Part shown: piece by piece, positions 36,626 to 51,200 of the stretch | How positions within the stretch are numbered: the stretch's first letter is position 1 | Layout of the letters: every line of letters begins with the position of its first letter | DNA from: Micromonospora sp. WMMD882 | GTDB taxonomy: Bacteria; Actinomycetota; Actinomycetes; Mycobacteriales; Micromonosporaceae | Length of the DNA: 64,000 nucleotides | Assembly: GCF_027497255.1 (NCBI RefSeq) | Contig: NZ_CP114903.1 | Location: 1,736,001-1,800,000 of the forward strand | Direction: 5' to 3' | Position numbers and translations under genes: made by a program | The notes under the pieces: generated by a model | The model's database searches: none | Told to the model about the DNA's origin: nothing | The model's input: only the letters and a program-made list of their open reading frames with translations

Positions 36626-36793
36626 CCCCCCACCCACTCCCGCCGCGCCCGCTCTCCACCCGGCTGATCAAGAGGTTTTCGCGCCCGCGGACCGGATCCC
36701 CCTACCAGAACGTCTTGGTGAACCAGGCGGAGGGCGGGAACGGGTGGGTGGGGTGGTACGGGGCGCGGTCGGGTGTGGACGTATCGTCACCGC

Positions 36794-38071
36794 ATGACGT
36801 ACGGGGTCGGCGGTCCATGGTGGACGGCGCTGGCCGCGTACCGGGTCTGTCACCTGGCCGGGGCCGGCCGGGAGCTGCTCGATCTCGCCCTGGATCCGCT
36901 GCCCGCCGACGCGCCCGCGGTGCTGTGGTACGAACCGGCCGTCGGCCTCGACGCGGCCGGCCAGGTGAGCCGGCTGATCGAGGCGGCGGACCGGGCCGCC
37001 GTCACGCTCTTCCCCCGCTGGCTGCCCGGGGCGGACCGGCTCGACGGTCCGGGCGTGCTCAGCGTCGAGGCGGCCCGCGTGCTGGCCGCCCGGGCCGCCA
37101 GCCGGTCGGCCCGGTTCGGGCCGTTCCTGGTCGAGCTGGCCGAGCGGGCCTGCCGGGCCGCGGCAGGACCGGACCGTGGTCGTCGCCCGGCGCAGGCGCG
37201 CTTCCCGGCGGAGGTGCGCGCCGCCGGGCTGGTCCGGGTCCTCGCCGACGCCTGTGACCGCCCGTCGGTCGCCCTGGTGGTCGAGGTGCCCGACGGTCTC
37301 GCCCCGGCCGACGAGCAGGCGCTCGCCGCCGCCGTCGAGTGGTTCGCCCAACATGGAAGCTGCGCGGTCTGGCTGGCCGGCCCGGAGCTTCGCGCCGTGG
37401 ACCGGATCCGCAGCGTGCGGATCACGCTGCCCGACGCGGTCACCCGCCTCGCCGCCCCCGGACAGGCGGCCTCCCACCGCACCGCACAGGACCGGGCTAC
37501 CCGACCCGCCGCGCCTGCCGCGCCCCCGCCGGTCGGCCCGCGGCGGAGCCCGGCGGACCCGGACCACCGGCCGCCGGGCCGGACCCGTCGACCGGCAGGC
37601 CCGGAGCATCAGCCGGCGGCCCAGGAGCGTCGGCCGGCGGGCCCGGGGGACGGTCCGGGCGGTCCCGTGCTGCGGGTGCCGCCCCGGGCCGGGCTGCCGC
37701 GCGCCGACAGCGCCGCCGAACAGGCGTTGGAACGGGCGCTCGCCCGGCACGACTGGGCCACCGGCCGCCGGTGGAACCACACCCTGACCCGGCACACCCT
37801 GGCCCGGCCGTACCGGCTCGACCTGTTCTGGCCCGCCGAGGGCCTGGTGGTGGAGGTGGACGGTCCGGAGCACCGGGAACGGCTGCGGTACGCCGACGAC
37901 CGGCGCCGCGACGCCCAGCTTCAACTGCTCGGGCACGACGTGCTCCGGTTCACCAACGACCAGGTGCTCAGCGACGTGGACGCGGTGCTGGGCATCATCC
38001 GGGACCTGCTGGCCGGACGACGCGCGGCCGGCGTGCGAGACGAGGGGACGAGGCACCATGTCGACCGTTGA
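36794..38071 (+). CDS. DUF559 (PD-(D/E)XK-like) endonuclease-domain protein, first gene of a three-gene cassette
   Basis: A 425-residue protein. The C-terminal ~110 residues are a DUF559/Vsr-like nuclease: an EQALERAL helix, YRLDLFW with D343, VVEVDG with E354 and D356, then HRERLRYADDRRRDAQLQLLGHDVLRF. Residues 1 to about 220 are a helical/Rossmann-like domain (ALVVEVPDGLAPADEQALAAA resembles the Walker B and following helix of an AAA or STAND ATPase) but no Walker A is present. A Pro/Arg-rich linker joins them. The end overlaps the next gene by 14 bp. Context suggests the nuclease works with the ATPase of the cassette. Confidence 0.8.
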   Translation: MTYGVGGPWWTALAAYRVCHLAGAGRELLDLALDPLPADAPAVLWYEPAVGLDAAGQVSRLIEAADRAAVTLFPRWLPGADRLDGPGVLSVEAARVLAARAASRSARFGPFLVELAERACRAAAGPDRGRRPAQARFPAEVRAAGLVRVLADACDRPSVALVVEVPDGLAPADEQALAAAVEWFAQHGSCAVWLAGPELRAVDRIRSVRITLPDAVTRLAAPGQAASHRTAQDRATRPAAPAAPPPVGPRRSPADPDHRPPGRTRRPAGPEHQPAAQERRPAGPGDGPGGPVLRVPPRAGLPRADSAAEQALERALARHDWATGRRWNHTLTRHTLARPYRLDLFWPAEGLVVEVDGPEHRERLRYADDRRRDAQLQLLGHDVLRFTNDQVLSDVDAVLGIIRDLLAGRRAAGVRDEGTRHHVDR

Positions 38072-38747
38072 GGCTCTGCCGAACCTGACGCCCAACCAGA
38101 TCAACGCGCTGGTCGTGCTGATGGTCGAGGCGCGCAAGCTGACCAACACCGAGCTGCGGGAGCTGGCCGGTTTCACGCTCACCGGAGCGGACAACGCCAA
38201 GCTGGTGAAGCTCGGGCTGGTCGTCACCGACCGGTCACACCGGCCCTTCTCGCACGAGCTGACCGACCACGGCTGGCACGTCGCGCGACGACTGCACACC
38301 GTCCGGCCGCCGCAGCAGGCCGGCTCGGCGACCCGGTCGCTGCTGACCGCGTTGCGCAACATGGACCGGGCGTTGGCCCGACTGCGGATCAGCCAGGCCG
38401 ACTTCTTCCGCCAGGAGCCGGCCCCGGCCACGGTCGACGCGCCGCAGGCCCCGGCCCCGGCCCCGGCCCCGGCCCCGGAAACCGTCGCCCCGGAGGCGTT
38501 GGTCCGGGCCGCGTACCGGGAGCTGGCGGTCACTCCCGGCGCCTGGGTCGGCCTGGCCGACCTGCGGGAACTCCTCGACGATCTCGACCGGGACGCGGTG
38601 GACGGCGCGCTGCGTGCCCTGGTCCGGCAGCCCGACGTACGGATCATCCCGGTCGCCAACAGCAAGGCGTTGAGCACCCGGGACCGGGCCGCGGCGGTAC
38701 GGATCGGAGACGAGGAGAACCACGCGCTGTCGATCGGGCCGGCATGA
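38058..38747 (+). CDS. two-domain winged-helix protein of the nuclease/ATPase cassette
   Basis: A 229-residue protein. Residues about 8-80 look like a MarR-type winged helix (NQINALVVLMVEARKLTNTE, then LVKLGLVVTD and a wing). A Pro-Ala linker (PAPAPAPAPE) follows, then a second winged-helix-like domain ending with RIIPVANSKALSTRDRAAA. Start ATG inside the nuclease gene; stop overlaps the ATPase start (ATGA). It may be an adaptor or DNA-contact subunit bridging the nuclease and the ATPase; this is inferred. Confidence 0.7.
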   Translation: MSTVEALPNLTPNQINALVVLMVEARKLTNTELRELAGFTLTGADNAKLVKLGLVVTDRSHRPFSHELTDHGWHVARRLHTVRPPQQAGSATRSLLTALRNMDRALARLRISQADFFRQEPAPATVDAPQAPAPAPAPAPETVAPEALVRAAYRELAVTPGAWVGLADLRELLDDLDRDAVDGALRALVRQPDVRIIPVANSKALSTRDRAAAVRIGDEENHALSIGPA

Positions 38748-41700
38748 TCGGCCCGGCGGAACGGGACGCCCTGGAGGCGCTCACCTTCAACCCGGCGGCC
38801 ACCCCCGACGACGTCTGGCGGCCGTCCCCGTACGACGTGCCGGAGCTGCACGAGCAGGTGGTCGGGGAGATCCTGCGTGGGGTCGGCCGGGCCCGCCGGG
38901 CCGACGCCGGTCAACCCCTCGGGGTGGCCGTGCAGGGGCGGGCCGGAGCGGGCAAGACCCACCTGCTCGGCGCGGTACGCGACCAGATCCAGCGCAGGGG
39001 CGGCTACTTCTTCCTGGTCAACCTGATCAACGGCAGGACGTTCTGGGAGAGCGTCGCGTTGGCCCTGGTCGAGGGGATGGGCCGGGACGCGATCGGGTGG
39101 GGCAGCCAGCTCACCACGCTGCTGCGTCGGCTCGGCGCGCAGCTCGGCGTCCCGGCGCAGGTGCGCGACGCGGTCGCCGGCCGTACCACGGTCACCCGCG
39201 CCGACCTGGACGTCTTCGTCCGGGCCCTGCGCGACTACGACCGGGAGGTCGGCCGGGACGCGCAGGACACCGCGCGGGCGCTGGTGCTGCACGGCTCCCG
39301 GGAGTACGAGGCGCAGGACGTCGGGTACGCCCACCTGATCTCGGAGCCGGGCGACCCGGCGGCCCGCGCCTTCTGGGGCCTGAACGGCCCGGTCCGCTCC
39401 GCGCAGCAGATCGTGCAGGACGTCTCCCGGCTCGTCGCGCTGACCCTGGAGCCGACCATCATCGCGGTGGACCAGCTCGACACGCTCTTCGCGCAGACCA
39501 GCACGGCGATGTTCGACCGGCACGACGACCTGGAGGAGGCGGCGGCCCGGACGGTCGCGCCGGTCGCGGACGGGCTGCTCGCCCTGCGTGACATCACCCG
39601 ACGCGCCCTGACCGTGGTGTCCTGCCTGCCCGACACCTGGGTGCTGCTCACCCGTAGCGCGCCCACCCCGGTCGCCGACCGGTTCCGCACCGCCGTCCTG
39701 CCGGACCGGATCCCCCGCCCGGAGATCGGGCGGGCGATCATCGAGAAGCGGTTCACCCAGGCGTACCAGGAGGTGGGGTTCACCCCGCCGTACCCGACCT
39801 GGCCGGTCGCGCCCGAGGCGTTCGCCGACGCCCCGAACCTCACCCCGCGCGCCCTGCTGCGCCGGGTCGACCGGCACGTCACCGCCTGCCGGGAGCGCGA
39901 CGAGATCGTCGAGCTGACCCGGCTGCTCGACGTCGACCCGACCGCCCCGACGCCGGTACGCCCGAGGACCCCGGCGGACGCGCTGGCCCGGCTCGACGCC
40001 CGCTACGACGAGTTGGTCGCGGCGGCCCGGGTCGCCGACGCGTTGGATCCGGCCACCGAGGACACCCGGATGCCGGAGCTGCTCGGGGCGGGACTGGCCG
40101 CCTGGATCGGCGAACGGTCGTCGACCGGGGCGACGTACCGGCACGACCCGCCGCCGGGACGCCGGCCGGCCCTGCACGGGCGGCTGGTCGAGGTGCTCGA
40201 CGAGGGCACCGAGAACGAGGCCCACTGGTGTTTCCGGGCGATCGCCAGCGGTAACGCGATCGCCGTGCTGAGCCGGATCCGGGCCGCCTGCACCATGGCC
40301 GGACTGGACCGGGAGATCCCGCAGCGGCGGCTGGCGCTGCTCCGTAACACGCCGTGGCCGAGCGGCCGGCGTACCGCCGAGGTGCTGGCGGCGTTCCACG
40401 CGGCCGGCGGGACGACACACGTCGTCTCCGACGCCGACCTGCGGGCGTTCGCCGCGCTCGCGACGATGGCCGCCGAGGCGGACCCGGCGTACCCGGACTG
40501 GTTGGTCAGCCGACGGCCGGCCAGTCGCGCCGCGCTGTTCCGGATGGCGCTCGGCGGCCCGGGCGACACCACCGACGACCCGGCGGCCGACGCCGGCACG
40601 CCGACCCACCCCGACGGCGGACCGACCGGCCAGGCCGGGGGCGGCCCGACCGGCGGGACGATCGACCGGGCCGGCGGCGACCTGACCGGCCGCGACGGTG
40701 GCGCGGCGCTGGCCGGCGCAGGGTCGGGCGGTCCGGGGGCCGGCGACGGGCCGGGCGGATGGGGCGCGGCGGCGGACGTCCACGACGTCGCCACGCCGGT
40801 GGTACGGCTCGGGCACGCCGTCGCCGACGGTCGGCCCTTCGAGGTGGCCCTCGCCTCGCTGCGCCGGCACAGCGTCGTCTTCGCCGGTTCCGGCTCCGGC
40901 AAGACGGTGCTGATCCGGCGGCTGGTGGAGGAGTGCGCCCGGCAGGGCGTCTCGTCGATCGTGCTGGACCCGAACAACGACCTGGCCCGGCTCGGCGATC
41001 CGTGGCCGCGTCCGCCGGCCGGCTGGCTGCCCGGCGACGAGGACCGCGCCCGCGACTACCTCGCCCACACCGAGGTGGTGGTCTGGACGCCCCGGGTGAC
41101 GGCGGGGCGGCCGGTGAGCTTCCAACCGCTGCCCGACTTCACGCCGGTGCGGGACTCGCCCGACGAGTTCGACCAGGCGATCCGCTCGGCGGTCGAGGCC
41201 CTCGCGCCCCGGGCCGGGGTCGCCGGGACGACCAGGCTGGCCCAGCAGGGCAAGGCGGTGCTCACCGAGGCGTTGCAGGCGTACGCGCGCAGCGACATGC
41301 TCGGCCTGCCCGGGTTCACCGACTTCCTCGCCGAGCTGCCCGACGGGGTGAGCCGGATGGCACGCGCCGACAAGCTGGCCCACGAGGCGGCCGAGACCCT
41401 GAAGGCGGCGATGGTCACCGATCCGCTCTTCGGCGGCGTCGGCACGCCCGCCGACCCGGGCACGCTGCTCACCCCGACGCCGGGCCGACGGGCCCGGGTG
41501 TCGGTGGTGAGTTTCGTGGGGTTGACCTCCGACCAGCAGCGACAGAGCTTCGTCAACCAGCTCCAGATGGCGCTGTTCGCCTGGATCCGGCGGCACCCGG
41601 CCGGCGACCGGCCGCTGGGCGGGCTGTTCGTGATGGACGAGGCGCAGACGCTGGCCCCGTCGACCGGGCACACGCCGTGCACGGCCAGCTCGATCGCGCT

Positions 41701-42016
41701 CGCCGCGCAGGCCCGCAAGTACGGGCTCGGGCTGGTCTTCGCCACCCAGGCGCCGAAGGGGCTGCACAACCAGATCGCCGGCAACGCCACCACCCAGTTC
41801 TTCGGGTTGTTGAACGCGCCGGCGCAGATCGAGGCGGCCCGGGGTCTGGCGCAGGCCAAGGGCGGCCGGCTGGCGGACATCGGCCTGCTCGCCAGCGGGG
41901 AGTTCTACGCGGCCGGCGAGGGCGGTCCACTGGTCAGGATCCGCACGCCGATGTGTCTCAGTCACCATCCGCCCACGCCGCTCTCCCCGGAGGAGGTGGT
42001 GACGCGCGCACGGTGA
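38744..42016 (+). CDS. 1090-residue double ATPase: AAA module plus HerA/FtsK-like helicase module
   Basis: The N-terminal module has Walker A GRAGAGKT (65-72) and Walker B IIAVDQLD (D243), followed by arginine-finger-like and lid regions. A Gly/Asp-rich linker spans about 605-690. The C-terminal module has Walker A GSGSGKT (715-721), VLDPNNDLARL, Walker B FVMDEAQTLAP (D965, E966) and a sensor region FATQAPKGLHNQIAGN, a pattern of HerA/VirB4/DUF87 motor ATPases that pump or unwind DNA as hexamers. Fusion of the two ATPases in one chain is unusual. Coupled by 4-bp overlap to the winged-helix gene. Confidence 0.85.
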   Translation: MIGPAERDALEALTFNPAATPDDVWRPSPYDVPELHEQVVGEILRGVGRARRADAGQPLGVAVQGRAGAGKTHLLGAVRDQIQRRGGYFFLVNLINGRTFWESVALALVEGMGRDAIGWGSQLTTLLRRLGAQLGVPAQVRDAVAGRTTVTRADLDVFVRALRDYDREVGRDAQDTARALVLHGSREYEAQDVGYAHLISEPGDPAARAFWGLNGPVRSAQQIVQDVSRLVALTLEPTIIAVDQLDTLFAQTSTAMFDRHDDLEEAAARTVAPVADGLLALRDITRRALTVVSCLPDTWVLLTRSAPTPVADRFRTAVLPDRIPRPEIGRAIIEKRFTQAYQEVGFTPPYPTWPVAPEAFADAPNLTPRALLRRVDRHVTACRERDEIVELTRLLDVDPTAPTPVRPRTPADALARLDARYDELVAAARVADALDPATEDTRMPELLGAGLAAWIGERSSTGATYRHDPPPGRRPALHGRLVEVLDEGTENEAHWCFRAIASGNAIAVLSRIRAACTMAGLDREIPQRRLALLRNTPWPSGRRTAEVLAAFHAAGGTTHVVSDADLRAFAALATMAAEADPAYPDWLVSRRPASRAALFRMALGGPGDTTDDPAADAGTPTHPDGGPTGQAGGGPTGGTIDRAGGDLTGRDGGAALAGAGSGGPGAGDGPGGWGAAADVHDVATPVVRLGHAVADGRPFEVALASLRRHSVVFAGSGSGKTVLIRRLVEECARQGVSSIVLDPNNDLARLGDPWPRPPAGWLPGDEDRARDYLAHTEVVVWTPRVTAGRPVSFQPLPDFTPVRDSPDEFDQAIRSAVEALAPRAGVAGTTRLAQQGKAVLTEALQAYARSDMLGLPGFTDFLAELPDGVSRMARADKLAHEAAETLKAAMVTDPLFGGVGTPADPGTLLTPTPGRRARVSVVSFVGLTSDQQRQSFVNQLQMALFAWIRRHPAGDRPLGGLFVMDEAQTLAPSTGHTPCTASSIALAAQARKYGLGLVFATQAPKGLHNQIAGNATTQFFGLLNAPAQIEAARGLAQAKGGRLADIGLLASGEFYAAGEGGPLVRIRTPMCLSHHPPTPLSPEEVVTRAR

Positions 42017-43411: not shown

Positions 43412-43941
43412 CCGGCCGTCCCTCGGCGCTGCGGAGGATCGCCCGTACGCCGAGGGACGCCGCCACCACGACGGCCGCCGTGCCCACCGTCCAGAACGGA
43501 CAGGCCACCGGCCGGGTGTCCAGCGCCGTGCCGGCGAACGAGTCGCCCGGCGCGATGCTCAGGCCATGCAGTCGGGCGACCAGGTGCGGCGCGACCGCGA
43601 CGAGCAGGCTGCCCCCGAAGGCGATCGTCGCCGACCGGGGCGACCGGGGCGACCCGGCCGCCCTGCCGGCCCTGGTGGGACCAACCGACGAGGGCGGTCG
43701 CCGCGACGAGGGCCGCGAGCAGCCACACCCGGTCGGCCACCGCCGACACGGCCAGGCCCGGCGGCAGCAGAGCATCGACGATCTCGTACGCCATCCAGGC
43801 AGGTCCCACGTCGGGCTGGCCGTGGGTCACCACGAGGATCCGGTCCTCGTACCGCCCGACGGCGAGGGTGGTGCGGAGCAGGTCGGCGGCGGCCCAGTCG
43901 ACCAACCCGGACGTTAGGGGCGGATCACGACAATTGCCCAC
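43398..43941 (-). pseudogene. frameshifted small membrane protein gene
   Basis: Two reading frames each encode half of a sensible membrane protein. From 43941 to about 43660 the frame gives RTTLAVGRYEDRILVVTHGQ, then a span (VWLLAALVAATALVGW). From about 43640 to 43398 another frame gives ATIAFGGSLLVAVAPHLVA and FWTVGTAAVVVAASLGVRA. The switch lies in 9-bp tandem repeats (GACCGGGGC units at 43633-43650, third copy imperfect), a likely slippage or sequencing-error site. The start overlaps the end of the condensation-fold gene, the end overlaps the secreted protein gene. Confidence 0.6.
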
Positions 43942-45376
43942 TTTTTGTGAGCTTGTTCACCGGGCCGGCGTCCGCCCGACACCCGTCGAAGACGGCCTGG
44001 AAGTCGGCGAGCGTGACCTCTCCGACAGCCAACGCCATGGTGACCCGCTCGAAGGCGAACAGGAACGCCCGGATGTCGTCGGGCGGCAGCAGCGCGGTGT
44101 CGGCCATCAGCGACAACTGGAGCCGCTGCGGGGTGCCCCGGGTGTCCAGGAAGACCGCCATCCCCTCGGCGTCGGCCTTCTGCGGCCAGTCGAAGGTGGT
44201 CGCCGCGGCGAGCCGGTCGAGCTGCGCCGCATCGGTGACCGGTCGGCCCGCCGGCCGGGGCAGCGTGGACCACATGTCGTTGAACTGGCAGCCCGACTCG
44301 AAGTCCGTACCCCGGGTCCGGGCCACCGCCGTGACCACCTGCCCGGCGGCACGGCCGTCGTAGCGGGCGTGGGCCCGGGCCTGCGCCATCACCCGGGTCG
44401 CGCGGTCGACCAGGTCGGCGACGGACCCGGCGGACAGCTCCACCGCCGTCCGGACGGCCTGGTTCAGACTCGACACGGTGTGGAACAGCTCCGGGGCGAA
44501 CCGGTTGCTCTGCATGATGTCCAGCGGCAGCACCGGCCCGGGGCAGAACCGCCGCAGCAACCCCAGGCCGACCGACAGCAGCAGCACCGACGTGGTGGTC
44601 CGGTGCCGGCGGGCCGCCGCCCGCAGGGCCACCGGCATGGCGTCGGACTCCAGCTCACCGCGGAAGAACCGGGGCGTCGCCGGGGCGGCCCGGGCGGGCA
44701 GCAGGCCGGGAGTGAGCCGTTGCACCTGCTGCCGTAGGTGGCGGACGGCCTCGACGTTGAGCAGTTGCCCCTGCGGGGACCGTTCGAAGGTGGCCAGGTC
44801 CACCGGCTGCCAGGCCGGACGGGCCGGCGGGGCGGGCGTCCCGTCCACCCGGGCCTGCAACAGGGCGGTGAGCTCCGCCGCGAGCAGATCGGCGCTGAGG
44901 TAGTCCGCCGACAGGTGCGACACGGCGAAGGCGACGAGCACCGGGATGCCCTCGTGCAGGGCGACGGCGAACCGGATCGGCACCTCACGCTCGTGGTCGA
45001 AGCCGCCGGTGGCCCGTTGGAGGTACCCGGTGACGATGTCGGCGAAGCTCACCGGGTCGTCGGCCGGGCGGTCGTGCAGCTCCACGGTGACCACGCCCCG
45101 GGGCAGCACCTCCTGGACGACCTCGCCGCGTTCGCTGGCGTGGTAGAGGGTGCGCAGCGACTCGTGCCGCCGCATCAGCTCGGCAAGCTGCTCCACCACG
45201 TCACCGGGGCTGAGCAGCAGCGGGACGGGCACCCACCGGGTGAGCACGAAGAACGGCTTGGTCTGCGGGTACCAGTGCCGGATGACGTCCCAGGTGCCCT
45301 GCTGCCCCCAGGACAACGGGGCCCGGCGGGCCCGTCCGCCGTGGAACTCGCACTCGACGCTACTCTCGGTGATCAT
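43925..45376 (-). CDS. condensation-domain (PapA-like) acyltransferase with altered active site
   Basis: A 483-residue stand-alone protein of the CoA-dependent acyltransferase/NRPS condensation fold. APLSWGQQGTWDV near residue 20 is the typical first core motif; the active-site motif HHxxxDG is here SHLSADY (residues 153-159), keeping the catalytic His154 and Asp158 but losing the first His and the Gly. It lies at the end of the polyketide operon and overlaps the MATE gene by 4 bp. The likely role is transfer of the acyl chain from the ACP to an alcohol or amine acceptor; acceptor unknown. Confidence 0.82.
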   Translation of the reverse strand: MITESSVECEFHGGRARRAPLSWGQQGTWDVIRHWYPQTKPFFVLTRWVPVPLLLSPGDVVEQLAELMRRHESLRTLYHASERGEVVQEVLPRGVVTVELHDRPADDPVSFADIVTGYLQRATGGFDHEREVPIRFAVALHEGIPVLVAFAVSHLSADYLSADLLAAELTALLQARVDGTPAPPARPAWQPVDLATFERSPQGQLLNVEAVRHLRQQVQRLTPGLLPARAAPATPRFFRGELESDAMPVALRAAARRHRTTTSVLLLSVGLGLLRRFCPGPVLPLDIMQSNRFAPELFHTVSSLNQAVRTAVELSAGSVADLVDRATRVMAQARAHARYDGRAAGQVVTAVARTRGTDFESGCQFNDMWSTLPRPAGRPVTDAAQLDRLAAATTFDWPQKADAEGMAVFLDTRGTPQRLQLSLMADTALLPPDDIRAFLFAFERVTMALAVGEVTLADFQAVFDGCRADAGPVNKLTKSGQLS

Positions 45377-46740
45377 GCGCGGTCGCCTCTCCGGATCACG
45401 GTCGTCTCCGCCGGGGTCAGGGCCGCCGCCGGACGGGCGAACAGCACCTCCCGCAGGCAGAACAGGGTGTACGTCAGGCCGGCCGACCAGCCCGCCACCT
45501 GGGCCCACATCACGGCGTCGATGCCGAACGGGCCGTTGAGCAGGTACGCGACCGGGATCTGCACGAGCACGAAGGCGATGACCGTGCAGATCAGCGGGGC
45601 GGTGGTGCGGCGGGCCCCGTTCAGGTACCCGTGCGCCACCACCATCACCGTGTACAGCGGCAGGAACGGGTAGATGATCGTGATGTACCGCTCGGTCAGC
45701 GTCCGGGCGGCCGGGTCGTCGGTGAACAGCCCGGCGATCGGTGACCGGGCCAGGATCACCACCGCCGCGACCAGGACGGACAGGCCCACGGTCAGCCCGA
45801 TCGTGCGGACCAGGCCGTGCCGGGCCCGGAGCCGGTCGCCGAGCCCGAGGTTCTGCGCCACGAAAGCGGTCGTCGCGCCGGAGAGGTCCAGGAAGAGCAT
45901 GCCGGTGAACAGCTCGACCCGGGACACCACGGTGAACGCGGCCAGCACCGTGTCGCCGTACCGCTGGATGACCCAGACCAGCACCATGATGCCCACCGCG
46001 AGGATGACGTGCTGACTGGCCAGCGGCAGTCCGAGCCGTACGGCGTCACGCAGCTCACTTCGTACCGCCGGGGTGGACCGGCCGCCGGTGACCGGGTGGG
46101 CGCGGGCCGCGTGGGCGAGCCCGACGACCAGCGCGAGGGTGCTCGCCGCCGCCGTGGCCAGAGCGGCCCCGGACACCCCGGCGTCGAGCACCGCCACCAG
46201 GAACCAGACCAGGACGACGTTCACCACGCTGCCGAAGCCCTGCACCCACATGGCGGCCCGGGAGTCGCCCAGCCCCCGGAAGTAGGCGCTGACCGCGGCG
46301 GTGCCGAAGATGCCCGGGAAGCCGAGGGAGAGCATCCGGAAGAACCCCTGCGCGTCGGCGGCGAGCGTGCCGTCGATGCCCATCAGCGCCAGCGCCGGGC
46401 CGGCCAGCACGGTCGCCAGGGCGACACAGCCGACCGACCAGGCGACGGTGGTGAGCGTCAGGGCCCGCACGACGGCCCGCCGGTCCTCGTGCTGACCGGC
46501 GCCGCGCAGGTGCGCCAGCCGGATGGTGAATGCGGTGCCCAGCCCGATGAACATGGCGTTCAGCAGGTAGAACAGCGGACCCGTCGCCCCCACCACGGCC
46601 AGCCCGGTCACCCCGACGTACCGTCCGACGATGATGCTGTCGACCAGCAGGTAGCCCTGCTGGAGCAGGTTGGCCGCGGTGAGCGGCAGGGCGAAGCCGA
46701 CGATCCGTCGCAGCGCCGGCCCGGTGGTCATGTCCGTCAT
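45373..46740 (-). CDS. MATE-family efflux transporter
   Basis: A 455-residue, 12-span exporter with the two MATE halves (VGFALPLTAANLLQQGYLLV at the start and a matching LGLPLASQHVILAVGIMVLV in the middle). It sits 7 nt after the polyketide synthase gene and overlaps the acyltransferase gene, so it most likely exports the operon product. Confidence 0.92.
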   Translation of the reverse strand: MTDMTTGPALRRIVGFALPLTAANLLQQGYLLVDSIIVGRYVGVTGLAVVGATGPLFYLLNAMFIGLGTAFTIRLAHLRGAGQHEDRRAVVRALTLTTVAWSVGCVALATVLAGPALALMGIDGTLAADAQGFFRMLSLGFPGIFGTAAVSAYFRGLGDSRAAMWVQGFGSVVNVVLVWFLVAVLDAGVSGAALATAAASTLALVVGLAHAARAHPVTGGRSTPAVRSELRDAVRLGLPLASQHVILAVGIMVLVWVIQRYGDTVLAAFTVVSRVELFTGMLFLDLSGATTAFVAQNLGLGDRLRARHGLVRTIGLTVGLSVLVAAVVILARSPIAGLFTDDPAARTLTERYITIIYPFLPLYTVMVVAHGYLNGARRTTAPLICTVIAFVLVQIPVAYLLNGPFGIDAVMWAQVAGWSAGLTYTLFCLREVLFARPAAALTPAETTVIRRGDRA

Positions 46741-46747
46741 GCGGGGC

Positions 46748-49700
46748 TCACGACTCGCGGTCGGCGAACTCGACGAGATCCTCGATGTGGTACGCGATCT
46801 CGGCGATCGTCCGGTCGGCGAGCAGGTCCGCGACGTCGTACTGCACGTCGTGGCAGACGGCGATACTGCTCGCCACCGACGTCGCCATGATCGAGTCTCC
46901 GCCGAGGTCGAAGAAGTCCGCCTCGACGTCCAGCTCGGGAAAGCCGAAGGCGAGGGCCAGGCAGCGTCCCACCGACTGCTCGACCTCGGTGTAACCGCCG
47001 TCCGCGCGGCCCACCAGCGTGACCTCCACCGCGGCCACGTTGGCCCGGATCCGGTCCGAGGCCCGCCGCAGCCGCTCGTCCAGCGCCCGCATCTCCTGCT
47101 CCACCTTGGCCTCGATCTCGGCCGACAGCGGCACGTCGTACGAGCGCAGCAGGTGGATCAGCTCGCCCCGGTAGTGCAGCTCACCGCCGAACAGCCGGGA
47201 CCGCCGGGACCGCAGCGCCGCGTCCATCACCTCCAGGCCGGTCCGGGTCGGCAGGGCCTTGAACATGGTGTCGCCGTTGGTGCCGTGGTCGACGGCCATG
47301 CCGATCTCCTTCCAGGCGACCCAGTCCAGGGCGACCACGTGGCCTCCGCCGCCGGCCTGGGCCCGGGCGACGGCGTCCAGGTAGTAGTTGCCGGCCGCGT
47401 AGTCGGCCTGGCCCGGGGCGGGGAAGACCGAGGCCACCGAGGAGAAGTGCACGACGAAGTCGGGGCGGTCCGCCCGGGTGAGCTGGTCCAGCAGGAACGC
47501 CGCGTGCAGCTTCGCCCGGACCACCGCCTCGAAGTCGGCGAGCTGACGGAACATCAGGGTGCTGCCACCGGGCAGCCCGGCGGCGTGCACGATCCCGTCG
47601 ACGCGCCCGTACTCGCGCTGAATGCCGGTGACCGCGGCGGTCAGCGCCGCCGGGTCGCCGGCGTCGGCCGGGGTGACCTGCACGGTCGCGCCCAGTTCCT
47701 CGATCTGGCGGACGGCCCGGATCCGGCCGGCGACGGCCGACCCGGCCCCGGTCGCCAGCAGGTCGTCCCACCGGTCCCGGGACGGCAGGCCGGACCGGCT
47801 GAGCAGCACCAGGTTGATCTTCGGTTCCCGCTCGGCGAAGAACCGGGCCACGGCCAGGCCGAGCGCGCCGGTGCCGCCGGTGACCAGGTACGTGCCGCCC
47901 GGCTTCAGGTAGGTCTGCGGTCCGTCGGCGGCGATTTCCGGGACCTCCACGAAGACCTCACGCAGCCGCTGGTCGCCCCGGAGCAGGAACAGGCCGTGCT
48001 CGGCGGAGAGGATCTCGGCGCGCACCGCCGCCGGAGGCGCCGCCGCGTCCACGTCCAGGTGCCGGACCCGGATGTACGGGTACTCGCGGCCGATCACCTT
48101 GCCGAAGCCGACCAGGGCGGCGTTCTCGGTCACCGCCGTGTGGTCGCCCTCGGCGGCGGGCACCGCGGCGCGGGTCAACACCGTCAGGTCGACCTTGACG
48201 CCGGCGGCCATCAACGCCTGGGAGAGCAGGAACAGACCGTTGAGGTTCTTGCCGGTCCGGCGCTCGACCTCGACGATGTCGGTGGCCGGCTCCGCCTCGA
48301 AGGCCAGCGCGTACACCAGGTGGGTGACCGGGCCGTCAGCGACCAGCCGGGCGATCCGTTCGTATCCGGTCGGGTCGGCGGCGGTGAACACCGGGCCGTC
48401 CGGCCCGATCGGCGCGCCGAGCCGCAGCACCCGCAGCTCCCCCGGTCCGGCGGCGGTCAGCAGCGCCTCCGCGTCGGTGTCCGGGTCCACCAGGGCCAGC
48501 ACCGTCGCGCCGGCGGTCACCTCGGCGGCGGGCGCCGGGGCGGGGCGGAACTCCACGTCGTGGGTCACCGGGTGGCGGTCCTCGGCGGCGCCGAGCGAAA
48601 GCTGGTCCCGCCAGGTGTCCGGGAACTCCACCCAGGCCAGGGACTCGTCGAACAGGTAGCCGGGCAGGCGGACCACCCGGGGCGGGACCGGTCCGGCCAG
48701 GCTGCGCCAGTCGACCGGGGCGCCCCGCAGGTACTCCCGGGCGGCGGCGGCCAGCGGGGTGTCCGGCAGCGCCGGCAACCGGTCGGCCAGCGCGTCGACG
48801 AGTTGGCGACGCAGGTCGTCCCGGTCGGTGACGACCAGCGCGAGGCGGTGCCGGTGGGCGCTGCGGGAGATCCGGCTGGTGTGGCAGATGTCGGCGATGG
48901 GCAACTCCCGGCCGGCGGGCTCGTCGAGGAACCGGACGTACCGTTCGGCCAGCGCGGTCAGCGACCGGATCGTGGCGGCGCTCAACGTGAACAGGTCCCC
49001 GGCGACGGGTCCGGCGGGCCGGTCCAACGGCGGCTCGACGTACTCCTCCACGACCACGTGGGCGTTCGTGCCGCCCAGCCCGAAGGCGCTCACCCCGGCC
49101 CGGCGCGGGTGGCCGTCCGGCGACTCCCAGGGCCGCAGGCCGGTCGAGACGTACAGCGGGCCGGCGGCGAAGTCGAGACTGGGATTGGGGGTGTGGAAGT
49201 TCGCCTGCGGCGGGATCATCCGGTGCCGGAGCACGGCGATCGCCTTGATCAGCCCGAGCACGCCGGAGCCTTCGAAGAGGTGGCCGACGTTCGCCTTGAC
49301 CGTGCCGACCGCGCAGAACCCTCGGTCGGCGGTGTACGTGGCGAAGGCGCGTCTCATGCCCTCGTGCTCGATCGGGTCACCCACCCGGGTCGCGGTGCCG
49401 TGCGCCTCCAGGTAGCCGATGCTGCGGGCGTCCACCCCCGCGTTGCGCCACGCGGTCCGCAGCAGCTCGGCCTGCGAGTCGGAGTCCGGGTTGGTGATGC
49501 CCTCGGTGTTGCCGTCGTGGTTGACCGCGCTGCCCTTGATGACGGCGTAGATCTGGTCGCCGTCGGCCTGCGCCCGGCTCAGCCGTTTCAACACGACCGC
49601 CCCGGAGCCCTCGCCGAACCCGGTGCCGTCGGCGGCCTCGTCGAAGGTGCGGGTGACCCCGTCGGAGGACTCGATGCCGATGTTGCTGTGCGGGTGTTTC

Positions 49701-50350
49701 ACCGGCGCGAAGACGATCCGGGCGCCGCCCACCACCGCCATGTCGCAGTCCCCGGCCAGCAGCGCGTTCTTCGCCTGGTGCACCGCGACCAGGGTCGCCG
49801 AGCAGGCGGTGTCGACGACCAGGCTGGGGCCCCGCAGGTCCAGGAAGTGGGAGAGCCGGTTCGCCAGCATGGCCGGGATGTTGCCGGTCAGCGCCTGCTG
49901 GCCGACGCTCGGGTCGATCCGGGAGATGTAGTCGAGATAGGTGGAGCCGGGGTTGACCGCGAACCCCACGAACACGCCGGTACGGCTGCCGCGCAGCCGG
50001 TCCCGGGAGTACCCGGCGTCCTCGAAGGCCAGGAACATGGCCCGCAGCACCATCCGGTGGTGCGGGTCGGTGAGCGTCGCCTGACGCGGGTTCATGCCGA
50101 ACGCGGCGTAGTCGAAGGTGTCCACGGTGTCCAGGAAGGACCCGTTGTGGTACTCCAGGTCGGTGTCCTCCACCGGGTCGACGCTGACCGCGCGCAGGTA
50201 CCGGATGTACTCGGCGAGCTTCTGCCGGCGGTCCTCGGGGAACGGCCGGGTGAGGCTGGTCCCCGACGCGACGACCTGCCAGAAGGCGTCCAGGTCCCGG
50301 ACGCCGGGCACCTCCACCGAGAGCCCGACGACGGCGATGTCCGTGTTCAT
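46748..50350 (-). CDS. AT-less modular polyketide synthase: KS-KR-ACP
   Basis: A 1200-residue single module. Ketosynthase in 1-440 with all catalytic residues (Cys183 in DTACSA, His317 in EAHGTA, His357 in KANVGH). A long linker/structural KR half spans about 590-800. Ketoreductase follows with TGGTGALG (824-831), Lys947, Ser970/971, Tyr984 and Asn988, so it should be active. The carrier protein has DLGGDSI with Ser1153. No AT, DH, ER or TE domain is present; acyl units must come from separate acyltransferases, two of which are encoded just upstream. ATG 50350 with an MAT gene end 7 nt before. Confidence 0.93.
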   Translation of the reverse strand: MNTDIAVVGLSVEVPGVRDLDAFWQVVASGTSLTRPFPEDRRQKLAEYIRYLRAVSVDPVEDTDLEYHNGSFLDTVDTFDYAAFGMNPRQATLTDPHHRMVLRAMFLAFEDAGYSRDRLRGSRTGVFVGFAVNPGSTYLDYISRIDPSVGQQALTGNIPAMLANRLSHFLDLRGPSLVVDTACSATLVAVHQAKNALLAGDCDMAVVGGARIVFAPVKHPHSNIGIESSDGVTRTFDEAADGTGFGEGSGAVVLKRLSRAQADGDQIYAVIKGSAVNHDGNTEGITNPDSDSQAELLRTAWRNAGVDARSIGYLEAHGTATRVGDPIEHEGMRRAFATYTADRGFCAVGTVKANVGHLFEGSGVLGLIKAIAVLRHRMIPPQANFHTPNPSLDFAAGPLYVSTGLRPWESPDGHPRRAGVSAFGLGGTNAHVVVEEYVEPPLDRPAGPVAGDLFTLSAATIRSLTALAERYVRFLDEPAGRELPIADICHTSRISRSAHRHRLALVVTDRDDLRRQLVDALADRLPALPDTPLAAAAREYLRGAPVDWRSLAGPVPPRVVRLPGYLFDESLAWVEFPDTWRDQLSLGAAEDRHPVTHDVEFRPAPAPAAEVTAGATVLALVDPDTDAEALLTAAGPGELRVLRLGAPIGPDGPVFTAADPTGYERIARLVADGPVTHLVYALAFEAEPATDIVEVERRTGKNLNGLFLLSQALMAAGVKVDLTVLTRAAVPAAEGDHTAVTENAALVGFGKVIGREYPYIRVRHLDVDAAAPPAAVRAEILSAEHGLFLLRGDQRLREVFVEVPEIAADGPQTYLKPGGTYLVTGGTGALGLAVARFFAEREPKINLVLLSRSGLPSRDRWDDLLATGAGSAVAGRIRAVRQIEELGATVQVTPADAGDPAALTAAVTGIQREYGRVDGIVHAAGLPGGSTLMFRQLADFEAVVRAKLHAAFLLDQLTRADRPDFVVHFSSVASVFPAPGQADYAAGNYYLDAVARAQAGGGGHVVALDWVAWKEIGMAVDHGTNGDTMFKALPTRTGLEVMDAALRSRRSRLFGGELHYRGELIHLLRSYDVPLSAEIEAKVEQEMRALDERLRRASDRIRANVAAVEVTLVGRADGGYTEVEQSVGRCLALAFGFPELDVEADFFDLGGDSIMATSVASSIAVCHDVQYDVADLLADRTIAEIAYHIEDLVEFADRES

Positions 50351-50357
50351 GGGTTCC

Positions 50358-51200
50358 TCACCTCTGTGCGATCCGGCTCACGAGTGAGCTCAGGGTCTGA
50401 CCGTTGACCTCGTCGAAATCCGTCACTCCGGCGGCCCGGAGGGTGTTCACCGCGCGCACCCACTCGACAGGCGTGGACAGTTGTCGGGCCAGCAGGTCCG
50501 CCGCCCGACCGACGTCGAACACGTCACCGGTGACGCTGGACACCACCGGCGTCCGGGCCGGGGCGAACGTCTGCTCCGCGAGCACGGCGCGGAACGCCTC
50601 CTCGGCGGGGGCCATCAGGGGCGTGTGGAAGGGGCCGCTCACGTTGATCGGCACCACCCGGGCCCCGGGCAGGGCCGCGATGGCCTTGCCGGCCACGGCG
50701 ACCTCGGTCCGGTCCCCGGCGATGGTGGTCTGGGTGTCGGCGTTGAGGTTCGCGACGTACACCCGGCCCAGGCCGGTCTCGGTGAGCGCCCGCCGGACGA
50801 ACGCCTCGGGCACGCCCTGCACGGCGGACATGCCGCCGCCGGTGACCTCGGCCATCAGCTCCGCCCGGCGGGCGACCAGCCGCAGCGCGGTGGCCAGGTC
50901 CAGCACGCCGGCGGCGTGCAGGGCGTTGTACTCGCCCAGACTATGTCCGGCCAGGTACCGGTGGCGCGTCGGGTCCTCCGCCAGCCGGGTCGCCCCGAGC
51001 AGCGCGTTGACGAAGAACACCGCCGGTTGGGCGTACCGGGTGTCCCGGAGGCGGCGTTGCGGGTCGCGGACGCACAGCTCCTCGATCGGGTAGCCGAGGA
51101 TCTCGTCGGCGAGGGCGGTCTGCTCCGGGAACCGGGCGAACAGGTCGGCGCCCATGCCGCGCCGCTGCACCCCCTGACCGGGGAAGAGTAGGCAGTGCAT
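50358..51200 (-). CDS. discrete malonyl-CoA:ACP acyltransferase (trans-AT)
   Basis: A 280-residue FabD-like acyltransferase: FPGQGVQRRGMG start, nucleophile Ser87 in GHSLGE, Arg111/112 region (ARRAELM) and His192 in FHTPLM. These are the residues expected for malonyl transfer. It is placed between the SAT-like gene and the AT-less synthase, so it probably loads extender units in trans. Spacing is 7 nt to the synthase and 13 nt from the SAT-like gene. Confidence 0.92.
   Translation of the reverse strand: MHCLLFPGQGVQRRGMGADLFARFPEQTALADEILGYPIEELCVRDPQRRLRDTRYAQPAVFFVNALLGATRLAEDPTRHRYLAGHSLGEYNALHAAGVLDLATALRLVARRAELMAEVTGGGMSAVQGVPEAFVRRALTETGLGRVYVANLNADTQTTIAGDRTEVAVAGKAIAALPGARVVPINVSGPFHTPLMAPAEEAFRAVLAEQTFAPARTPVVSSVTGDVFDVGRAADLLARQLSTPVEWVRAVNTLRAAGVTDFDEVNGQTLSSLVSRIAQR

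Follow-up and report, generated by a model that had tools for sequence, protein, structure and literature searches.

HerA/FtsK capture systems are predicted systems in which an AAA+ ATPase (Orc/CDC6) is coupled to a HerA/FtsK domain (NAR 2024, PMC10853773). According to the sections of that paper that deal with them, an inactive restriction endonuclease (REase) domain lies between the AAA core and a C-terminal winged helix-turn-helix (wHTH), and an active REase, drawn from two families of which one also occurs in AbiJ, is found with one or more wHTH proteins; such systems are proposed to localise to the invader and to pump DNA to the nuclease. In DUF4297-HerA, as the relevant part of PMC11291478 describes it, there are two components, HerA is a protein of its own and assembly activates both enzymes. 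Here, we explored a cassette of three overlapping plus-strand genes at positions 36794-42016 of a 64-kb stretch of Micromonospora sp. WMMD882 (NZ_CP114903.1, positions 1,736,001 to 1,800,000; the window), whose genome is a single contig of 6.37 Mb. The genes, open reading frames (ORFs) 1 to 3, encode a nuclease, a wHTH adaptor and an AAA-HerA motor. We think it likely that the cassette is a mostly chromosomal, modular anti-invader system, most likely anti-phage or anti-plasmid, in which a constant core is combined with an exchangeable effector; the indications of this predicted role are indirect, namely its neighbours, its patchiness and its effector exchange.

ORF3 has an AAA module, a domain of REase topology and a HerA module in one chain, next to a nuclease gene and a wHTH gene, and the cassette has several features in common with the capture systems; the active REase and the wHTH protein of the capture operons have counterparts in ORF1 (activity predicted) and ORF2. 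Unlike them, the cassette uses DUF559, which is not among the REase families named in the sections on these systems (PMC10853773), and effector exchange, including that with a protease, is not described in those sections; "DUF559", "AIPR" and "actinobacteri" have no occurrence in the main text. Because Orc/CDC6 membership and an inactive REase are not proven here, we did not file the cassette as a capture system. It differs from DUF4297-HerA in its constant wHTH gene and in its HerA part, which follows AAA and REase-like domains in a single fused chain. Like HerA-NurA, it pairs a HerA-type motor with a neighbouring nuclease gene, but the nuclease is of the Vsr/DUF559 kind, the motor has another architecture and the partner is exchanged between lineages. 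HerA-NurA, SIR2-HerA (Nezha) and DUF4297-HerA are thus all unsuitable as names, since the partner is DUF559 and HerA shares a chain with AAA.

The best PADLOC match to ORF3 was mad8 (74 bits, residues 704-1067), followed by HerA models. The mad8 profile (314 positions) covers the HerA part only, and with E values up to 1 no other mad model of PADLOC matched ORF1-ORF3 or the gene downstream. MADS, as we assume, comprises further mad genes beside mad8, and the cassette was not assigned to it. With regard to DndFGH, BREX and BRC, no PglZ, BrxX, DndF or DndG match was found in the three-gene unit with Pfam and PADLOC. Among open-licence papers pairing DUF559 with HerA or phage, none dealt with the trio as far as titles and the start of abstracts tell, which is a weak absence.

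The motor was taken by the sequence-only reading for two complete P-loop ATPases, the second of HerA type. The first module (residues ~33-384; Pfam AAA_16/AAA_22) does have a Walker A motif (65-72), but its Walker B (243-246) is DQxD in 113/113 sequences, with Gln at the usual place of the catalytic Glu, and in this respect it is not complete. The second module (~683-1084) was confirmed as HerA-type by a DUF87 match (4.5e-9 at 688-938), by its motifs and by the fold search, in which HerA was the top match. It carries GSGSGKT at 715-721, MDEAQ at 964-968, R991 at the finger position and Q1002 at the sensor-1 position, all invariant among the relatives aligned. The corresponding part of PMC10853773 names a Gln sensor-1 and an Arg finger located upstream of strand 4 as marks of the HerA/FtsK clade, and ORF3 has both together with Walker A and Walker B. 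The list of fold matches was filled by the HerA part; its structural relatives include the defence motors DndH-C, SIR2-HerA and DUF4297-HerA and also HerA-NurA structures, but VirB4 as well.

Between the two modules, residues ~411-603 form a domain of REase-like topology (helix-strand-strand-strand-helix-strand-helix-strand in the model of 439-559, a part for which no fold match of its own was obtained). No D...ExK set was seen in residues 476-499 of the alignment, and the linker 606-681 is disordered. Among ~8000 scored candidates for each protein, 2570 homologues of ORF3, 258 of ORF2 and 269 of ORF1 were found at E ≤ 1e-3; the nearest named homologue of ORF3 is from Micromonospora cathayae (81% identical). 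ARAGORN called a tRNA-Gly inside ORF3 on the minus strand (40643-40728), which is probably spurious.

ORF1 ends in an intact Vsr/DUF559 nuclease domain (residues 304-411), as the earlier reading had claimed (Pfam DUF559 2e-12, residues 314-411 of an alternative 432-aa reading that starts at an in-frame GTG at 36773, upstream of the ATG). It has the fold and the acidic catalytic set of DUF559/Vsr-like nucleases, and the catalytic residues are invariant among the relatives aligned, so the nuclease does not look dead across homologues. The N-domain (~2-211), which had been described as a degenerate ATPase, indeed has a STAND/ORC-like NTPase fold with no P-loop, and a Pro-rich linker of low confidence (~230-290) joins the two. 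ORF2 consists of a wHTH, a Pro-Ala-rich linker and a C-terminal half that is conserved in the alignment. Two wHTH domains had been proposed; the N-terminal one was recovered by profile (AspA, E 9.4e-5), and the second received no confirming match. No Pfam match to ORF2 was found up to E 1, and most of its other PDB matches were calmodulins, which look like composition noise.

We then analysed relatives, whose loci were found via the motor. A pattern scan of GTDB contigs gave at least 550 confirmed stretches of 597, and the best 80 of these (Micromonospora, Dactylosporangium, Streptosporangium, Nonomuraea, Kribbella, Mycobacterium, Rhodococcus and others) were pooled with 40 further loci. Removal of eight exact duplicates from these 120 left 112 loci, with three near-identical pairs (97-98%) kept; the best 80 are those most similar to the query, which inflates the share of DUF559. 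Genes were called by our own script and compared by eye with the window ORFs and with the annotated locus L173. Neighbour families are BLAST clusters, with domains looked up in representatives only (protease type, L032 and L108; Trypco1, L032; AIPR, L061 and L070; DUF4365 pair, L096; TPR type, L041 and L058, with weak matches below Pfam cut-offs; type I-G operon, L063).

ORF2 and ORF3 are neighbours in 112/112 loci (111/112 at first; the ORF2 of L135 escaped the gene caller and was found later by a separate check), and a DUF559 gene lies within three genes upstream of ORF3 in 69/112. The genes are therefore conserved together, as the sequence-only reading had expected. Among pairs of DUF559 loci with ORF3 less than 65% identical, offsets −2 and −1 were common to 2182/2182 pairs (−2 partly by selection), whereas offsets −5 to −3 and +1 to +5 were common to 0-4 of 1705-2182 pairs. 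Because neighbours outside the trio are almost never common to distant DUF559 loci, the trio has sharp borders, and the many homologues together with a gene order kept in distant relatives mean that the cassette is not a product of chance. A complete trio was also found in a Tsukamurella record (L173:4281-9249), independently annotated as DUF559, hypothetical and DUF87, and on the mobilizable MOBP plasmid pMaq22A_1p of Methylobacterium aquaticum (Alphaproteobacteria; L172:3230-8239). In the Tsukamurella record, the trio, a PIN/VapB pair and a helicase gene lie between rpsQ and rplN of a ribosomal-protein gene cluster.

The effector gene is exchanged between lineages, while the wHTH-motor pair is the constant core. 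DUF559 is missing in 43/112 loci, and 30 of these 43 carry another labelled gene. In 13 loci this is a divergently transcribed gene of 1291-1368 aa (one BLAST cluster), for which Pfam shows WD40 repeats in the representatives L032 and L108; weak PADLOC matches of L032 (3e-5 and weaker) and a Trypco1 neighbour suggest that its product may be a protease. The protease-bearing defence models matched by L032 are presumably trypsin-like. An adjoining gene of 103-111 aa occurs in 10 of the 13 loci and is Trypco1 in L032 (6.7e-17). Trypco1 is coupled to trypsin-like peptidases in the relevant part of its defining paper (PMC7159879).

An AIPR/AbiU gene lies downstream in 8 loci and adjoins ORF3 in 7 (PADLOC AbiU 8e-112 in L061); its position was common to 21/27 AIPR pairs, and every other non-core offset to none. 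According to the section on it in a 2012 paper (PMC3506569), AIPR is a family of abortive-infection proteins that have HEPN as their N-terminal domain. In one locus (L070:5111-7765) the AIPR protein is apparently fused to an amidohydrolase (PF04909) domain, with 884 aa in all. Genes for DUF4365 (PDC-M02A, 2.9e-66) and PDC-M02B (4.9e-98) are found directly upstream in 4 loci (domains from L096); DUF4365 is called a nuclease domain in the passage of PMC10810196 that concerns it. An HTH/TPR-like protein, whose Pfam matches are below the cut-offs, occurs alone in 2 loci and with DUF559 in 2.

PDC-M55A/B genes stand beside the pair in 3 loci (L042, L059 and L068). We dropped PDC-M55 as an effector after a PDC-M55C match was found in the flanks, and took it as an independent neighbour system. 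In L042, a Mrr-type gene downstream of the core was given no effector label. Two genes downstream of the core, L050:6216-7742 (CBS and PDC-S02-like) and L053:11597-12955 (CBS and RAMA), are possible further effectors. Thirteen of the 112 loci have no effector label; of these, L088 and L139 have a DUF559 fragment, and L049, L088, L131 and L143 are at contig ends. In Mycobacterium/Mycolicibacterium, six loci (L115, L118, L129, L134, L135 and L139) have the core pair and no intact DUF559 was found in them, the fragment kept in L139 being C-terminal. Another mycobacterial locus, L122, has DUF559, and several neighbour families are common to L122 and L134.

The exchange follows the phylogeny of the motor. 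On an ORF3 tree (FastTree only; L045 with a split ORF3 and L055 with a short ORF3 left out; DUF559 label given precedence; PDC-M55 kept as one of the labels), six effector labels needed 7 changes, compared with a possible minimum of 5 and a mean of 29 after shuffling. Both the protease type and the TPR type formed a single clade nested among DUF559 ones; AIPR needed 3 changes and lay towards the midpoint root, and DUF4365 needed 2. In 5 of the 8 genomes with several fetched copies, which are 45-54% identical, clearly different effectors stand beside the copies.

The sequence-only reading suggested scoring enrichment next to known defence genes. We scanned 130 of 149 eligible flanking genes of 100-1000 aa, core and putative effectors left out, and 130 of 192 control genes from the same genomes with PADLOC (E ≤ 1e-15). 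The flanks matched 74 families and the control 8. With 25 of the 74 flank families itemised, and if one protein is assumed per named family, this corresponds to 22 vs 5 genes (Fisher p = 0.0008). Downstream of ORF3 and codirectional with it, L039, L040, L044 and L063 have a type I-G CRISPR-Cas operon, with a 68-aa opposite-strand call between ORF3 and the operon in L039; L037 has a Cas10-bearing operon there. These five loci are one five-member ORF3 clade, possibly a CRISPR-linked branch. Furthermore, L036 is near LmuB and L046 near a Csx1-type CARF-HEPN gene.

The core pair, the effector exchange and the defence-rich flanks support the interpretation that the trio, a real, sharply bounded and modular system, is probably a variant of HerA-motor defence. 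ORF2 and the AAA/REase-like part of ORF3 would recognise some feature of foreign DNA as it enters or replicates. The AAA module, with its Gln for the catalytic Glu, may set the assembly state by binding nucleotide, and the HerA module would form a hexamer that threads DNA. The STAND-like N-domain of ORF1, on its long flexible linker, would dock on the AAA platform, and the nuclease would cut the threaded DNA. The partners licensed by this core in other lineages would be AIPR, DUF4365, protease or HTH-TPR-like proteins. We infer complex formation, DNA threading, the trigger and the outcome (invader cutting or abortive infection); DUF4297-HerA offers by analogy an experimental precedent for such a threading licence, and HerA/FtsK capture is the closest concept. 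More tentatively, the core may be a general foreign-DNA sensor serving as a plug-in platform, on which threading licenses effectors of unrelated chemistry: the nuclease, AIPR, DUF4365/PDC-M02B or protease/WD40/Trypco1.

Several observations weigh against a defence system of this kind. Profile comparison of the C-module with HerA, proposed in the earlier reading, gave the DUF87/HerA match, but the NCBIfam equivalog cut-offs were far from reached (HerA_Thermprot 25.9 bits vs 800; helicase_HerA 18.8 vs 970), so that ORF3 is not HerA proper by this measure. The enrichment leans on related CRISPR loci: with the eight type I-G genes removed it fell to 14 vs 5 (p = 0.05), and 10 vs 5 would give 0.29. 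The control had matches as well (PDC-S01, C3a206, mad2, mad3 and GlgB). The 14 window neighbours scanned belong to transport, cell-wall, regulatory, biosynthetic or no known families, with no defence genes among them. A search of 50,697 phage records at 1e-20 gave no match, and among 72,556 plasmid records there were only 3 matches at 1e-40, one of them to a record of 11.85 Mb. The putative protease gene is transcribed divergently, and in eight loci (the mycobacterial L115, L118, L129, L134 and L135, and L047, L050 and L055) the pair stands with no DUF559 found and no label. Finally, a single chromosomal context (clusters C8-C14) recurs in seven or eight Micromonospora loci, which vertical inheritance would explain as well.

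This common context would also suit a host machine for DNA repair or end processing, like HerA-NurA or very-short-patch repair, working in genome maintenance. The Vsr-like fold of the nuclease and the HerA and HerA-NurA fold matches of the motor point the same way. However, the distribution is patchy: an ORF3 match of at least 400 bits was found in 38 of 61 genomes of the family (own included), only a weak one in 4 and none in 19, and in a draw of 198 genomes of the phylum 2 matched at 1e-60, the genome of the window being one. A repair path also fits poorly because the nuclease is replaced in other lineages, by AIPR, protease or TPR-like partners, and the flanks are defence-rich. We therefore regard a repair role as unlikely.

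It is also rather improbable that only the core pair is one system and that the DUF559, AIPR, DUF4365 and protease genes have gathered near it in defence islands with no relation to it. The divergent protease gene, the eight uncut loci with the pair but neither a DUF559 gene found nor an effector label, and the PDC-M55 and CRISPR genes, which look like independent neighbours, would agree with this. Against it, DUF559 adjoins ORF2 in 69 loci whose other neighbours hardly coincide, it accompanies the pair in Alphaproteobacteria too, and the effector types are all distributed by clade on the motor tree. An origin in a mobile or conjugative element (a coupling-protein-like ATPase, an adaptor and a nuclease) or as a plasmid-partition remnant is very unlikely, since genes for a relaxase, an integrase or type IV secretion were not found with Pfam among the 14 window neighbours scanned (part of the window), as the conjugation ATPase of an integrative element would have led one to expect, almost no gene beyond the trio is common to distant DUF559 loci and the phage records gave no match.

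If the cassette is indeed a modular defence system, one frequent, uncharacterised actinobacterial core (at least 550 stretches) would support several effector chemistries and would show how HerA-type defence motors diversify. It would help to place proteins with DUF559, DUF4365/PDC-M02, Trypco1 and AIPR in a functional setting, and the predictions made for HerA/FtsK capture would be directly testable via compact three-gene cassettes. If the core is a plug-in platform, defence in the protease branch would consist of proteolysis that a DNA-translocating motor turns on.

Table 1. Features of the cassette (window coordinates).
Feature	Position	Strand	Description
ORF1	36794..38071	+	425 aa from ATG; exchangeable effector
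ORF2	38058..38747	+	229 aa; core adaptor
ORF3	38744..42016	+	1090 aa; core motor
ORF3 AAA module, strand before Walker A to Walker B, residues 61-249	38924..39490	+	Pfam AAA_16 51-254
ORF3 HerA/FtsK module, residues 683-1084	40790..41995	+	Pfam, fold matches, alignment

The three genes proposed by the sequence-only reading were recovered as ORFs (Table 1), with both overlaps seen: 14 bp between ORF1 and ORF2, and 4 bp (ATGA) between ORF2 and ORF3. In the control stretches (L152-L171), the one or two genes that match mad2 and mad3 may mark a MADS-like locus or be generic matches. The neighbours of the cassette in the window include amidase, MFS and Band-7 genes. Near the trio, at 43925-51200, condensation-domain, polyketide synthase (KS-KR-ACP) and acyltransferase genes suggest a biosynthetic gene cluster.

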